Source: a bacterium (GTDB lineage Bacteria; Cyanobacteriota; Vampirovibrionia; Gastranaerophilales; Gastranaerophilaceae). Taken from it: a stretch of 64,000 nucleotides of DNA. How positions within the stretch are numbered: the stretch's first letter is position 1; every line of letters starts with the position of its first letter. Location of the stretch: assembly GCA_017403285.1 (NCBI GenBank), contig JAFQOI010000057.1, positions 1 to 64,000 of the forward strand, written 5' to 3'. Positions 1,820-44,658 of this stretch are shown piece by piece. The notes beneath the pieces are model-generated. The model was not told the origin of the DNA. It searched no databases and worked only from the letters and a program-made list of their open reading frames with translations. A program made the position numbers and the translations under genes.

Positions 1820-2818
1820 ATGTTGTATTGTAAAAATCCTTATATTAGTTGCGAAATAAATTGTGGGGGCGACGTCTTTCCTTGTTGTAATGACTGGTGT
1901 AGTTCCTATTCTTTTGGAAATGTGCTGGAACAGAGCATTGAAGAAATATGGTTTGGGGAGAAAGCTCAGAATTTCAGAAAACAGTTCGCAGAAAAAAATT
2001 ATCCTTATTGTCAAATGGATAAATGTTTGTACAATATGGAACAAAGAGAAGATGATATGTTGCCAGAAGTCAATTTGCCAAAAGTGTTGAGATTGGTATA
2101 TGACCGTTCTTGTAATTTACAGTGTAAATTTTGTAGATCGCAACCAATTACTACAGAAGATGATGATGCAGAAAAAATAAATGAAGTAGTAAAATCCTTT
2201 TTGCCCAAGATGAATATAACAGGTGGTATTATTTATCTTTGCGGTGCCGGTGAAGTTTTTAGTAGTAGATTAGCACTTGATATAATAAAAGACGTTGCTA
2301 CAAATTATGAAAATGTAAAATTTCATATTATAACAAATGGTGTATTGGCATCTGAAGAAAAATTTAAAAGTTTGAATTTAGAAAACAAGGTAAGATTTTT
2401 AGAAGTTTCTGTTCACGCAATGACAGAAAAGACATATAACAAATTAATTAAGGGTGGAAATTTTAAAAAACTAAGAACAAATATTGAATATATGGCAAAT
2501 CTTCTTAGGGAAAAAAAGATAGAAAAACTTTTTATGAATTATACGATTACGTCCGAAAATTTCCATGAGATGAAAGATTTTGTAATATGGGCAAAAAAGA
2601 TGGACGCACTTATTAGTTTTCTTCCTTTAGTTAAAAACAAAAGTTTAGAACTTGATGTGTTTAATGAGTTAAATATTTCTAATCCGTCGCATCCTAAATA
2701 TCATAAATTTTACAAGGTAATGCAAGATTCTATTTTTAAATCTGACAATATAGTCATTTCATCTGAATATTTTAATTTGCCAAAGCCTAAAAATTTTTTA
2801 AAAAGAATATTTTGTTAA
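1820..2818 (+). CDS. Radical SAM protein with N-terminal SPASM-like cysteine cluster
   Basis: This 332-residue protein has a CX3CX2C radical SAM motif at C98, C102 and C105 (CNLQCKFC), so it should bind a 4Fe-4S cluster and cleave S-adenosylmethionine. Ahead of it lies a cysteine-rich region (C4, C11, C15, C22, C23, C27, C64, C69) with the look of a SPASM module: a GDVFPCC run, a GNV turn, an EIW motif, then CX4C. SPASM modules normally follow the radical SAM barrel, so this order looks permuted. A paralogous layout occurs in the gene at 43073-44062. Start chosen at the ATG at 1820, with AAGG seven bases upstream. The substrate is unknown; peptide or protein modification is the usual SPASM role. 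A terminator follows directly. Confidence 0.8.
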   Translation: MLYCKNPYISCEINCGGDVFPCCNDWCSSYSFGNVLEQSIEEIWFGEKAQNFRKQFAEKNYPYCQMDKCLYNMEQREDDMLPEVNLPKVLRLVYDRSCNLQCKFCRSQPITTEDDDAEKINEVVKSFLPKMNITGGIIYLCGAGEVFSSRLALDIIKDVATNYENVKFHIITNGVLASEEKFKSLNLENKVRFLEVSVHAMTEKTYNKLIKGGNFKKLRTNIEYMANLLREKKIEKLFMNYTITSENFHEMKDFVIWAKKMDALISFLPLVKNKSLELDVFNELNISNPSHPKYHKFYKVMQDSIFKSDNIVISSEYFNLPKPKNFLKRIFC

Positions 2819-2854: not shown

Positions 2855-3388
2855 TTACATATCTGATTTTTCAATTACGCCAGTTAAGGTTGCGTACTCT
2901 CTTTCTGAAATGACTTTTTTAGTTAATTCTAGAAGTTCAAAAGTTTCTGCTTTTGTTAATTCTGGATTGTTCCAGTTTTGTTTAAAAACTTCTTCTGCCG
3001 CGCTAGAAACTACGCCTTGAGATGTTTTATCTAATTTTCCAATTACTTTTTGTGATGATAAAAGTTGTCTAATAAAAGCGGCATTTGTAAATCCATTTTC
3101 TGTTGTACCGCAATTAACGATAGTATTTCTTACTGTTTCTCTTGCTTCATCACTAGCACACTTCCCGCCAAGTTTATTTCTTAAAAATTTAGTAAAAGGT
3201 GCTTCGCTAAAAATACCTTTTTTCTTAAAGAAATCTGGATTTTGGAATTCATTTGGTGTTGATAAGCATTCATATATGTCTGAACAGGATTGAGCAATAT
3301 GCATACCCTTTTCAGAAAATTTAGCAAGTCCAAAAGATACATGATTATTTCTGTTGATATTATTTGTTGCTGAAATAGTTAAATTCAT
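2855..3388 (-). CDS. Hypothetical protein with N-terminal VSFG motif
   Basis: A 177-residue protein that I do not recognise. The N-terminus is Asn-rich and low in complexity up to a VSFG motif at residues 17-20, followed by a soluble, mainly helical-looking domain. There is no clear signal peptide or membrane segment. Cysteines near residues 35, 77 and 92 have no familiar spacing. A strong AAGGAG ribosome site precedes the ATG, so it is probably translated well. The same VSFG motif after a disordered N-terminus occurs in the nucleotidyltransferase at 26385. It shares the terminator at 2822-2848 with the convergent radical SAM gene. Confidence 0.65.
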   Translation of the reverse strand: MNLTISATNNINRNNHVSFGLAKFSEKGMHIAQSCSDIYECLSTPNEFQNPDFFKKKGIFSEAPFTKFLRNKLGGKCASDEARETVRNTIVNCGTTENGFTNAAFIRQLLSSQKVIGKLDKTSQGVVSSAAEEVFKQNWNNPELTKAETFELLELTKKVISEREYATLTGVIEKSDM

Positions 3389-17649: not shown

Positions 17650-18594
17650 TTATAATTCCAGTTTTTCAATGATTTTGGGAGTTAATAAATCCCAAACAGC
17701 TTCTGTTGGATGAAGGGTTTGTGGTGAAAAGTATTTCTCTGTGAACAAGTCTTCGTTTGTTAATTCTTGCATTTTTATTACTTTAAAATTATTTTTTTCG
17801 AGTTTTTCTTTTAACATATCTTGATGGCTTTGCCATGTGTTATAAAAGATAACAACAAAATCTATTTTTCTGTTCCACATTTTTTCAAGATTTTTTCTTG
17901 TTTCTATGAAATATAATAATGCTTCATCAGTCAATTTTTCGGCATTTTGGGGGTCATTGATGTATAAGTCTACCCATTTATTTTTTAGATGTTTGAATGT
18001 ATATGTTGAATTTACAAAATATTTTATTGGATTACTGAAATCTTCTTTTACTAATTTATCCCCTACTTTTTTGTAGGTGGTTTTCATCGCATTATCGGTT
18101 ACATTTAGGTAATTTAATTTCATTCTTCGATAATGGTCCTCAATCATTATATATATTACCAAATCAGATGCTGGAACTTCTCTATAAAATGACTCATTCT
18201 CACTTTGATAATACATTTTTGAAAAGCCTTTTGCGGGTACACTTCTATTGTACACAGGACGTTTTAGGCTGTGTGCTAATTTATAACTAAATGTTTGGTT
18301 GTAGTTTAAATATTGTCCGTGTGCATACGAACATCCAAAAATAGTAATTGGTGTGGAATTGTATTCAAGTCCATCTGGCTTTCTTCCGAAAGTAGTATTG
18401 TTTTCGCCATTAAAGTAGTTGTTCATATTAGGCCAATAAGTTTCTTTGAAAGAATAAGAAAATTTATTTGGCGGTCTGTCATTTATTACTTTGCGAAACT
18501 CTTCAATCGATGCAGTGTATACAAGGTATTCTATTGCCAATAGGACGAGAAGAATGCCAATTATATTTGCTACGATTAAAAAAAATTTTTTCAT
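17650..18594 (-). CDS. Membrane-anchored SGNH/GDSL-like protein
   Basis: A 314-residue protein. An N-terminal membrane helix at about 5-26 is followed by an extracytoplasmic domain. The segment ITIFGCSYAHG (S89) resembles block I of SGNH hydrolases, and the C-terminal LHPTEAVWDLL with H295 resembles block V. This suggests an esterase or acyl-transfer enzyme acting on envelope glycans, but blocks II and III are not clear. I choose the ATG at 18594 because AGGA lies six bases upstream; the longer start has no ribosome site. The substrate is unknown. Confidence 0.65.
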   Translation of the reverse strand: MKKFFLIVANIIGILLVLLAIEYLVYTASIEEFRKVINDRPPNKFSYSFKETYWPNMNNYFNGENNTTFGRKPDGLEYNSTPITIFGCSYAHGQYLNYNQTFSYKLAHSLKRPVYNRSVPAKGFSKMYYQSENESFYREVPASDLVIYIMIEDHYRRMKLNYLNVTDNAMKTTYKKVGDKLVKEDFSNPIKYFVNSTYTFKHLKNKWVDLYINDPQNAEKLTDEALLYFIETRKNLEKMWNRKIDFVVIFYNTWQSHQDMLKEKLEKNNFKVIKMQELTNEDLFTEKYFSPQTLHPTEAVWDLLTPKIIEKLEL

Positions 18595-18922
18595 ATTTTT
18601 TCCTATGTGTTCCAATTAAAATATTATTTAGTTAATCTATGTGTGTCAAATTGAATTAGAATAAAAAATCAAAATACAATTGTTTTAATAAAAATAGAAA
18701 ACTTTAATATGTAAATAAAAATTTACAATTTGGCTGAAAAATAATAAAAATGGCTTTTTCGAATAATCAAGAAATAATTGATAGTTTCGTAAGTTTAAAA
18801 AAACAATCTAAATGAAATGTAGATAAAAAGCCAAAAAATTATGTAATAACTGAAAAAAGGGTACTTGATTTCAAATTTTGAACATGTACGATAGAGATAA
18901 TCAGCCGTAAGACGAGGAAGGT
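18595..18922. other. Non-coding gap upstream of infA with a 9-base inverted repeat
   Basis: These 328 bases are very AT-rich. TGGCTTTTT at 18751-18759 is repeated inverted as AAAAAGCCA at 18825-18833, able to close a long stem-loop. Inside is a 21-codon ORF from ATG at 18750 with no ribosome site. A possible promoter is noted at 18865-18892. The gap probably holds the promoters of the ribosomal operon and of the SGNH-like gene. Confidence 0.5.
18865..18892 (+). promoter_or_regulatory. Possible promoter of the infA ribosomal operon
   Basis: TTGATT at 18865-18870 and TACGAT at 18887-18892, 16 bases apart, about 30 bases before infA. GATAAT at 18896 is an alternative -10. A moderate match only. 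Confidence 0.35.
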
Positions 18923-26384: not shown

Positions 26385-28218
26385 ATGATAAATAAGATTG
26401 ATTCAGTAAATCTAAACGCAAAAGCATCAATGCCTGCTAAAGTTAAAAAACAAGCAAATAAAGCGGCTCAAAATGTAGAAGCACAACAACTTTCTGGAGC
26501 TAAATTTGCTCAAGCATACCAAGCAATGAATGGTGTAAGTTTTGGTGCAAAGAAAACTGCTCTTACAGCATATGAACAAACATTTATTGGTAAAAAAGAA
26601 ATTAGAATTCCAAATCTTTTAGATATAAAAGAAAATTTGGATATTCCTTATACATTAATGCCAGCAGACGCAAAACATCTTAATTCGGCAGGTTTGAATG
26701 TTGAAAAAGTACAAGATGGAACAAAAGAATTGTTTAAAATTTCTAACGACAAAGGCGATCGTATTTTTGAAGGCGTTGTTGATAAAGCAAAAGCAAAAGA
26801 TTTACCTGTATTAACATATAAGCAAGGTAAATTTATGCCTGAAATTACTGTTAAAGATACTTCAGTTATGCCTAACAAATCAATCAAAATGTTAGCAGGA
26901 AGTACATTAGAAGGTGAAGGTTTCAAATTCCATATGATTGGTGATTACACACCAACTCCAGATGCAAAAACAAAAAGCGTAGGCGTATCTTTTAAAGGCA
27001 GAACAGTAATCACTACATTGAATAAAGAAGAAAGAACTCTTAATGCTGTAGATTCTTATAAAGATTCAGGTCTTCAATCACAAGCAGTAAAAGGTGATTA
27101 TTACGATATGATGAAAGCAGATGACCCTACAATCGTAATTCCAGCAGGTGGTTTCGGTGAAAGATTCTTTAACATTACAAGAGAACATGAAAATAAACCA
27201 TCAGCAAAATTACCTACAGACGAAAGATTCCGTATTATTGGTACTACATTAAACTTGGCTGCTTCAGCAGGTATTATGAATGGTGATGATAGTGACTCAA
27301 TAATTTATTTAAGCCAAGCACACGAAATTGAAGAAGGCGAAAATATTAAACATACATCTAAATATAAAACAGATGGTGGTGCTATAGCAGAAGGTCTAAG
27401 ACGTGATCTTATCCAAAATGATAAACCAGCAGTAATCTTAAATGCTGACATTTTCACAAACGCAGATATTACTCGTACATATAAAGCATTAAAGACTCTT
27501 CCAAAATGCTGCACTTGTAATTCCTTATTATCCAGTAAATGCTCAAAGAGCGAAAGCGTTCGGTCTTTTAGGTATTGAAAAAGATGATAATGGTAACTTA
27601 CAAATTAAAGAATTCTTAGAAAAACCAAAATATACATCAGATGCTCCAAAAAATTCAGAATTTGCTGAGCAAGGTGAATATGATAAAGCAATGGAAAGCT
27701 TCATGAAGGTTCAAACAGCAGTTAATCCTAACGACGAAAGCACATTCCTTGCAAACCCTGGTTTCTATTTCTTAAGCCCACAAGCACAGAAAGTTCTTAT
27801 GGCAAAAGGTATCTTAGAACCAAATGCAACTGGTCTTGGCGCACACGTTATGCCTGCAATTGTTGATCTTGCTAATAAAGGTGAATTATTAGATGCTGAA
27901 GGTAATCAAATGAAAGTATATACAGTTCCATTAGAAACAAAAGGTGGAAAAACCGCAGTTTGGGATGATATCGGAACAGCAGAAGCATACTTAAAACTTA
28001 TAAAAGATGTTGGTGCAGAATATAGAACACATGGTAATACTTCTGAAAACAAATACTATGGTATTCCAGAGTTCGTAATGGCTGACTTTGCCGAAAATGC
28101 TGACCCTGAGACTGGTATTGTATACGATTCAAAAGAAGCAAAAACAGGTTTTGACGCATTCTGCGAAAAACATAATGTAAAAGTTGCTGAAGGTAATATC
28201 TTCGTAGCAGGTCAATAA
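26385..28218 (+). pseudogene. Sugar-phosphate nucleotidyltransferase with extra N-terminal domain, split by one frameshift
   Basis: Two reading frames (26385-27578 and one running to 28218) join into one 610-residue protein if one A is removed from the AAAA at 27503-27506. The joined product has an Ala/Lys-rich start, VSFG at 51-54, an unfamiliar domain to about 240, then a nucleotidyltransferase core: IPAGGFGERF near 252, KLPTDERFRIIG, LNADIF, FLEKP, NPGFYFL and VWDDIGTAEAYL. These fit the GlgC/GalU fold, probably acting on a hexose-1-phosphate, but substrate and nucleotide are unknown. Codon use is the same on both sides, so the break is recent or a sequencing error. It lies between the sensor kinase and rpoB, with a terminator after it. 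Confidence 0.75.
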
Positions 28219-43072: not shown

Positions 43073-44062
43073 TTATATTTTCTCAAGTAAATATTTATCA
43101 ACTACAAATTTTGTTCTTTCCCAAAAAATCATATTGATATTATTTTCTTTGCATAATTGTTCAAAATGCAAATACAAATCTTTATAATGCTTAGGAAGCG
43201 GAGTTTCATCCAAATTTGTAAATAATAAATACTTATTATCAATCATAAATTCAACGGCGCTAATTCCTATTCTTTTCATAAGATTTATAAAATTCGTTAT
43301 TTCATCTTTATTATCATTAAGATTTTCTATAAGAATGTATTTGACATGAACTTTGCCACCATTTTTGCTTTTAGCGTACTTCTTTAAGTTGTCCACAGAC
43401 TGATTAAATTTATCAACACGTTTTAATTTTTTATAAAGTTCACGATTTGCACAATCAAGTGCGGTTACGTAATGAACAATATCTTTATCTAATAATTTTT
43501 TTATAATTGGCTGATATTTTATATTATTTGAAAGGATATAAAATTCTTTGACTCCTTGTTTTAAAAACTCTTTAACCATTGGTTCAAACTCTTTTAAAAC
43601 AGAAATGTCACCACCTTGAATAAAAGCTGTAAGGTTTTCTTTATCTAAAAGATCTTCTTTATACAACTCTTTTAGAAGAGGTAAAAAATCGTAGTATTGG
43701 CTTTTTTCTAATTTGTGTGATATTTCCCCTTTTGAGTCAAGCATTCTCGCACAGTATATGCAACCACAGTTACATTGCGTCCAATGACTTACATTTATTA
43801 GTTTGAATTTAGGCGAAATAATGTCTGATTCTTTTCTTTCTCTTAAGAAGAAACAATTTTTACAAGGTGATTTATCAATATCTCTTTCATTTAATAATTC
43901 AAATGCTTTATATTTTATTTGTCTAAATTTATCCCAATTTATTTTTTCTCCACGATAACCTTCGTAATAAACCGGACCGATTTGTCCTGAACAACAGGAC
44001 ATAATTCTGTCGTGAAAACAAGATAAGACGTTATTTAATTCATCACAAAAATAGTACTTCAT
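43073..44062 (-). CDS. Radical SAM protein with N-terminal SPASM-like cysteine cluster
   Basis: A 329-residue protein with the radical SAM motif CX3CX2C at C97, C101 and C104. Ahead of it are C6, C15, the pair C23-C24, and C67-x2-C70, a layout very like the protein at 1820-2818 (pair at C22-C23, C64-x4-C69, motif at C98). The cluster resembles a SPASM module placed before the barrel. I start at the ATG at 44062; a longer frame runs into tRNA-Gly and is not real. The gene begins 13 bases after tRNA-Gly. The substrate is unknown. Confidence 0.78.
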   Translation of the reverse strand: MKYYFCDELNNVLSCFHDRIMSCCSGQIGPVYYEGYRGEKINWDKFRQIKYKAFELLNERDIDKSPCKNCFFLRERKESDIISPKFKLINVSHWTQCNCGCIYCARMLDSKGEISHKLEKSQYYDFLPLLKELYKEDLLDKENLTAFIQGGDISVLKEFEPMVKEFLKQGVKEFYILSNNIKYQPIIKKLLDKDIVHYVTALDCANRELYKKLKRVDKFNQSVDNLKKYAKSKNGGKVHVKYILIENLNDNKDEITNFINLMKRIGISAVEFMIDNKYLLFTNLDETPLPKHYKDLYLHFEQLCKENNINMIFWERTKFVVDKYLLEKI

Positions 44063-44075
44063 AATTATCACAAAA

Positions 44076-44147
44076 AGCGGGCGATGGGGCTCGAACCCAC
44101 GACATTTTGCTTGGGAAGCAAACATTCTACCACTGAATTACGCCCGC
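44076..44147 (-). tRNA. tRNA-Gly (anticodon CCC)
   Basis: A 72-base tRNA with perfect acceptor GCGGGCG/CGCCCGC, anticodon stem TTTGC/GCAAA, loop TTCCCAA (anticodon CCC, codon GGG), and T arm GGTTCGAGCC. CCA is not encoded. A good promoter lies upstream, and the radical SAM gene starts 13 bases after the 3' end. Confidence 0.95.
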
Positions 44148-44247: not shown

Positions 44248-44658
44248 ATGAAAGAAATAGCAGTTAAATATTTTTTAGAAGGTTATTCTTGTTCTGAAGC
44301 AGTTGTACAAGCTGCAATTGATAAAGGTTATTCTCCAATTGAACTTTTAGCGGCAGCAACACCTTTTTCTGGTGGTATGGGAGTTAAATGTTTATGTGGT
44401 GCTGTTGCAGGTGCAATGCTTGTAATTGGTTCTATGTTTGGGAAAGATGCTCAACATGACGGAAAAAAAGCACGATTGATTGCTAAACAATTTAATGAAA
44501 GATTTTCGCAAAAATATAAAGTTAATTGTTGTAAGGTTTTAAGTTCTGGTTTTGATGATTTTCATTCTCAAGAACGTAAACATCATTGTTGCTCTATGGT
44601 TAGTGATAGCAGTGAAATAGTGGAAGCGCTTCTTAAGGAAAATTTTGTGCAGTCATAA
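44248..44658 (+). CDS. C_GCAxxG_C_C family protein
   Basis: A 136-residue protein of the C_GCAxxG_C_C family: C15 in GYSCSEAV, the CLCGAVAGA segment (C48, C50), then NCCKVL and HHCCSMV near 93 and 115. The family has conserved cysteines and is thought to be redox-active, often tied to metal or oxidoreductase genes, but its role is unknown. GGAGGGTG precedes the ATG, with TATAAT at 44223-44228 close upstream. It is followed by a zinc-ribbon protein gene. Confidence 0.85.
   Translation: MKEIAVKYFLEGYSCSEAVVQAAIDKGYSPIELLAAATPFSGGMGVKCLCGAVAGAMLVIGSMFGKDAQHDGKKARLIAKQFNERFSQKYKVNCCKVLSSGFDDFHSQERKHHCCSMVSDSSEIVEALLKENFVQS

Follow-up and report, generated by a model that had tools for sequence, protein, structure and literature searches.

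N-terminal-twitch radical SAM proteins of a Gastranaerophilales genus: a catalogued module order in two greatly multiplied families

Two genes, A and B, in a 64,000-nucleotide stretch of DNA from a Gastranaerophilaceae bacterium (the window; contig JAFQOI010000057.1 of assembly GCA_017403285.1) encode radical SAM proteins in which a twitch module precedes the barrel. Both belong to families that have been multiplied within one genus of gut Gastranaerophilales, and this expansion is restricted to that genus. The multiplication appears to be the new and surprising part, and appears to be undocumented in the open-access papers that we searched, none of which dealt with an expansion of radical SAM genes in these bacteria. 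We give about an even chance to the reading that A and B are N-twitch radical SAM enzymes that modify glycans and so diversify the cell surface; both the glycan substrate and the reaction are what we infer.

Results

Modules and cysteines of gene A

Gene A has the boundaries, the length and the motifs that were initially described for it: a GDVFPCC...GNV...EIW...CX4C stretch followed by CX3CX2C at residues 98-105. The features at this locus are as follows.

1820-2818, + strand: gene A, N-terminal-twitch radical SAM protein of 332 aa (open reading frame; Pfam SPASM match followed by Radical_SAM; colinear with NF033640, below its cut-off)
1829-2026, + strand: module of gene A assigned as twitch (half-SPASM), residues 4-69 (PF13186; conserved cysteines; aligns with BtrN 169-238)
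2105-2581, + strand: radical SAM barrel of gene A, residues 96-254 (PF04055; AlphaFold model)
2111-2134, + strand: CX3CX2C of gene A, C98/C102/C105 (invariant in alignments)
2823-2848, no strand: inverted repeat AAAAGCCTCGATTTAATCGAGGCTTTT with convergent genes on either side, a probable shared terminator (read directly in the sequence; absent from the terminator-scan output)

The Pfam SPASM model (PF13186) matches residues 4-69 of A with an E value of 1.5e-13 (51.2 bits, gathering score 21.5), or 7.8e-15 when the N-terminal part is searched alone; by this measure the resemblance to SPASM is far above chance. Radical_SAM (PF04055) matches residues 96-254 (42.8 bits, gathering score 29.5). The SPASM-like module that the initial annotation had placed ahead of the barrel is therefore present, although it starts at residue 4 and not at residue 15.

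In an alignment of 31 relatives of A, C4, C22, C64, C98, C102 and C105 are invariant, the position of C69 holds either this cysteine or a CX2C variant, and C11, C15 and C27 show no conservation. Because C4, C22, C64 and C69 are the only conserved cysteines of the A N-terminus, and the full two-cluster SPASM set is absent from A and B alike (four conserved N-terminal cysteines in each), the module is best described, on sequence, as a one-cluster twitch like that of BtrN rather than a two-cluster SPASM, with these four residues as candidate cluster ligands. The SPASM label that it had been given thus holds for the type of module, but what is present is half a SPASM. The cysteine plan is well kept in homologues: CX3CX2C in 81 of 82 A and in 193/193 B, and the four twitch cysteines in 192/193 B and nearly all A.

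tRNA genes lie directly upstream of A and of B, on the same strand in each case (Pro, 1676-1751; Gly, 44076-44147). A general association of the paralogues with tRNAs was considered and rejected, as 374 kb of paralogue loci hold only 6 tRNAs. A phage or viral origin was likewise dropped after A found no match in phage records or viral contigs.

Gene B and its relation to gene A

The second gene of the same layout, also reported initially, proved real.

43073-44062, − strand: gene B, 329 aa, the second radical SAM protein with an N-terminal twitch (open reading frame; Radical_SAM at residues 92-258; AlphaFold pLDDT 94.9)
43853-44047, − strand: twitch-like module of gene B, residues 6-70 (invariant C6, C23, C67 and C70; profile alignment with A)
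43289-43789, − strand: radical SAM barrel of gene B, residues 92-258 (PF04055)

B has a seven-cysteine plan (C6, C23, C67, C70; C97, C101, C104) and matches PF04055 with 40.4 bits (gathering score 29.5). The SPASM profile search, positive for A, gave no match at the B N-terminus in any of 49 members. Profile-profile alignment nevertheless joins A and B over 254 columns, the N-terminal module included, with 98.7 % probability. The AlphaFold models of both proteins are confident (pLDDT 88.5 for A), and each shows a strand, a hairpin and a helix with the cysteines placed as in the twitch of SkfB and BtrN (PMC6231123). Assignment of the B N-terminus as a probable twitch is thus supported by its alignment with A and by confidently predicted secondary structure. 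A single common origin of A and B was considered and not retained, since the barrel tree leaves the deep branches unresolved.

Putative redox proteins with a C_GCAxxG_C_C pattern adjoin radical SAM paralogues twice in the source genome (window 44248-44658, + strand; locus L009 10394-10918, − strand), which may be coincidence.

Module order compared with known systems

BtrN (PDB 4m7s, 4m7t) is an aminocyclitol dehydrogenase and a twitch radical SAM enzyme that shares the four-cysteine twitch with A, but carries it at the C-terminus where A carries it at the N-terminus. In a phmmer search of the PDB, residues 4-73 of A align with BtrN 169-238 and residues 92-201 with BtrN 10-119, the barrel part being weak by itself. 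The twitch of BtrN is matched by the A profile at an E value of 2.9e-12, and BtrN is the best PDB sequence match of that profile. The A profile likewise matches proteins from sister genera and Brachyspira whose twitch is C-terminal, as two pieces in reverse order; in the protein of locus L151, profile positions 77-267 come first, followed by 4-79. The permuted order proposed for these genes is, on these PDB and profile alignments, real relative to BtrN and to the sister-genus C-terminal-twitch proteins; it may have arisen by circular permutation or by domain shuffling. Brachyspira was discarded as an N-terminal example: a tblastn match had merged two neighbouring open reading frames, and its proteins have a C-terminal SPASM.

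The order is nonetheless already described. NF033640 (N_Twi_rSAM) has the twitch ahead of the barrel, and residues 3-299 of A match model positions 4-338 in one colinear stretch; each of the 31 aligned A proteins also matches the model. A reaches only 40.2 bits against a curated cut-off of 170, no gene of the source genome attains that cut-off, and A and B differ further in their shorter length and great multiplication. Because they share the NF033640 order and score below its cut-off, we regard A and B as divergent variants of a known arrangement, so that the permuted family of the initial annotation has at least two genes in the window but an order that had been catalogued before. Our literature search, of open-access papers only, found none on an N-terminal SPASM or on NF033640.

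N-twitch proteins occur elsewhere. That of Methylomagnum scores above the NF033640 cut-off (174.4 bits), and those of Manganitrophus and Paracoccus have the same order with scores under it. The Paracoccus zhejiangensis plasmid protein WP_101754483.1 has the N-twitch layout with A-like cysteines, adjoins glycosyltransferases and branches in the barrel tree as the sister of all A (99/96); it differs in about 145 additional N-terminal residues, has 23 % identity to A and occupies one place in its record. Sister-genus B-type proteins (L145-L148) share the B cysteine plan and order and are sister to all B (99/99), but number 0-2 per genome. Spiro-SPASM (TIGR04321), which we take from its name and from general knowledge to be another unusual module order, matches A weakly and in the barrel only (45.7 bits, cut-off 250).

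Expansion within one genus

The layout recurs across related genomes to an extent not visible from one window. The source genome (G000; 2.23 Mb, 97 % complete) contains 6 A and about 42 B genes, that is, about 48 paralogues. Its Radical_SAM matches number 76, and four expanded genomes have 76-85, compared with 18-23 both in five sister-genus genomes and in three congeners that lack the expansion (G008, G019, G033); the sister genomes are roughly equal in size to the expanded ones. Among 34 other genomes of the genus, 31 have B-type genes (6 to at least 37 each) and 30 have A-type genes (2-13 each), while other genera of the family and order have 0-2 B-type genes. When copies sampled from the genus are placed in the barrel tree, A forms one clade (99/97) and B another (99/85); judged from this tree, each family is a large radiation of single origin.

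Copies occur in arrays and singly. An array on contig C159 of the source genome has nine copies in a row, and a pattern bABA...AbB, tandem and of mixed orientation, recurs across relatives. Most copies of the source genome are single and lie between unrelated housekeeping genes. At the proC-purH junction (L183-L212), a B gene sits exactly between the two genes in four genomes (L060 5666-6622 in the source genome), with a start codon that overlaps the proC stop codon or directly adjoins it, while in at least 17 other genomes no B gene is present and purH starts 2-12 bp past proC. The copies are under purifying selection where tested, because dN among B orthologues is 0.10-0.22 while dS is about 3 or saturated, and the dN of the proC-linked copy is similar to that of proC.

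Genome G352, from a different genus in the family, carries tandem arrays of C-terminal-twitch radical SAM genes (L153 3644-9186, L154 5853-8005), a separate radical SAM multiplication. The proteins of these arrays have an N-terminus that resembles a signal or lipobox (MERRDFIKNGLCLGC...SGC).

Glycan neighbourhoods and companion families

Outside the genus, the surroundings of the closest relatives are suggestive of surface glycans. In sister genera, B-type genes are fused to family-2 (GT2) glycosyltransferase genes or adjoin them, stand beside polysaccharide pyruvyl transferase, NeuB or PGA_cap, or carry a hexapeptide transferase domain, and the N-twitch proteins of Paracoccus, Manganitrophus and Methylomagnum are all encoded among glycosyltransferases. 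Within the genus, GDP-mannose dehydratase, epimerase and GT2 genes form part of the arrays' neighbours. A B-type radical SAM domain shares one open frame with a MATE transporter (PF01554, E 2.8e-45) at L057 6491-8776 on contig C100 of the source genome.

A membrane-anchored family accompanies the expanded copies and has one member in the window:

17650-18615, − strand: member of a tentatively SGNH-like, membrane-anchored family, not adjacent to A or B (profile match, E 1e-91)

Its members (L077, L078, L083, L085 and others) lie inside arrays, and in several genomes the family is fused to an A-type radical SAM protein. Genomes of the genus carry as many as 23 copies; 23 genomes from elsewhere carry none. 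Pfam finds almost nothing in these proteins, AlgX in one member at an E value of 0.041 being the only match; we apply the SGNH label tentatively and on the basis of motifs, the family having a GDSL-like FGCS..G block and an HPN..W motif close to the C-terminus.

Large polytopic membrane proteins with the look of GT-C glycosyltransferases are encoded in or beside the arrays (L078 5296-6873, L084 5272-6882, L097 6238-7893); the two of the three that were scanned had no Pfam match. An N-terminus of the form MxISx(n)VSFG/FKG is found on unrelated proteins (window 2855-3388, − strand, and 26385-27578, + strand; L058 7476-8885; L009 11570-12373) and is possibly a lineage-specific N-terminal signal. 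These proteins were considered as radical SAM substrates and rejected, being only scattered neighbours.

Discussion

The glycan reading is favoured because the nearest relatives from outside the genus are located in loci for surface polysaccharide, one of them fused to a glycosyltransferase, and because the twitch resembles that of BtrN and the expanded copies accompany the SGNH-like membrane family. According to this model the CX3CX2C cluster would cleave SAM to give a 5'-deoxyadenosyl radical, and the four-cysteine twitch would hold an auxiliary cluster that accepts or donates an electron, as in BtrN; the small module makes BtrN-like chemistry a plausible analogy. The ancestors of both families probably worked in surface-polysaccharide loci. 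Likely targets would be lipid-linked glycans or the units from which glycans are built, altered for instance by oxidation or epimerisation of sugar residues, and if each paralogue had its own substrate the cell surface would be diversified. Two observations count against such a role: most copies of the source genome are outside glycan loci, and the best NCBIfam scores of A, all far under their cut-offs, are to metalloenzyme maturases.

The other readings (ALTERNATIVES), namely RiPP maturation, cofactor maturation, viperin-like defence and self-spreading, each lack a defining feature or have similarity in the barrel only. That A and B mature RiPPs or proteins, acting on a peptide or protein target encoded elsewhere in the genome, seems to us unlikely. 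Peptide maturases are numerous among SPASM/twitch enzymes (PMC6231123), and the folds of A and B align with SkfB, SuiB and PFL activase. However, array neighbours are mostly 0-80 bp apart and no precursor-like small gene stood out, the dispersed copies have no common partner gene, and no peptide-recognition domain was seen at the N-terminus, which is occupied by the twitch. The peptide or protein modification first suggested for these genes is not supported, given arrays that are for the most part too tight for precursor genes and out-of-genus relatives whose neighbours concern surface polysaccharide.

We see a rather small chance that the expansion is mainly that of a self-spreading or neutral gene family, most copies of which have little separate function. 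Seamless insertion among operon genes, as between proC and purH, and the tandem, mixed-orientation arrays are what such a family might produce, but inspection by eye revealed no flanking repeat or shared end motif at the copies and no transposase was noted beside them, and further points against it are that the copies tested evolve under purifying selection and that the cysteines are almost completely retained.

Cofactor or metalloenzyme maturation, the activity of the best-scoring NCBIfam models, is very improbable: the top scores of A (TIGR04317, 66 bits; TIGR04311, 62 bits) compare with cut-offs of 380 and 400 bits and their best stretches cover the barrel only, and about 48 copies suit no single cofactor pathway. 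It is scarcely credible that these are viperin-like antiviral enzymes producing altered nucleotides, even though viperins are among the top fold matches and PADLOC pVip gives A a weak 38 bits in the barrel, as the NCBIfam viperin model scores 34.2 bits against a cut-off of 180, again in the barrel only, there are no defence genes among the listed neighbour families, and no viperin is known to have an N-terminal twitch.

Returning to glycan modification, a bolder form of it would have some 50 enzymes of diverged substrate in each 2 Mb genome act together with the SGNH-like family in a combinatorial, radical-chemistry decoration of the surface, spread by seamless insertion of single genes into housekeeping operons. 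We consider this possible, with the odds somewhat against it.

Taken by itself, the order of the modules is a curiosity that had been catalogued, which cannot be said of the copy number. If A and B modify glycans, they would constitute a natural library for how twitch radical SAM enzymes choose their substrates. The enzymes also allow a test of whether placing the auxiliary-cluster module at the other end of the chain alters the chemistry, and they may bear on surface display in these little-studied, non-photosynthetic relatives of cyanobacteria.
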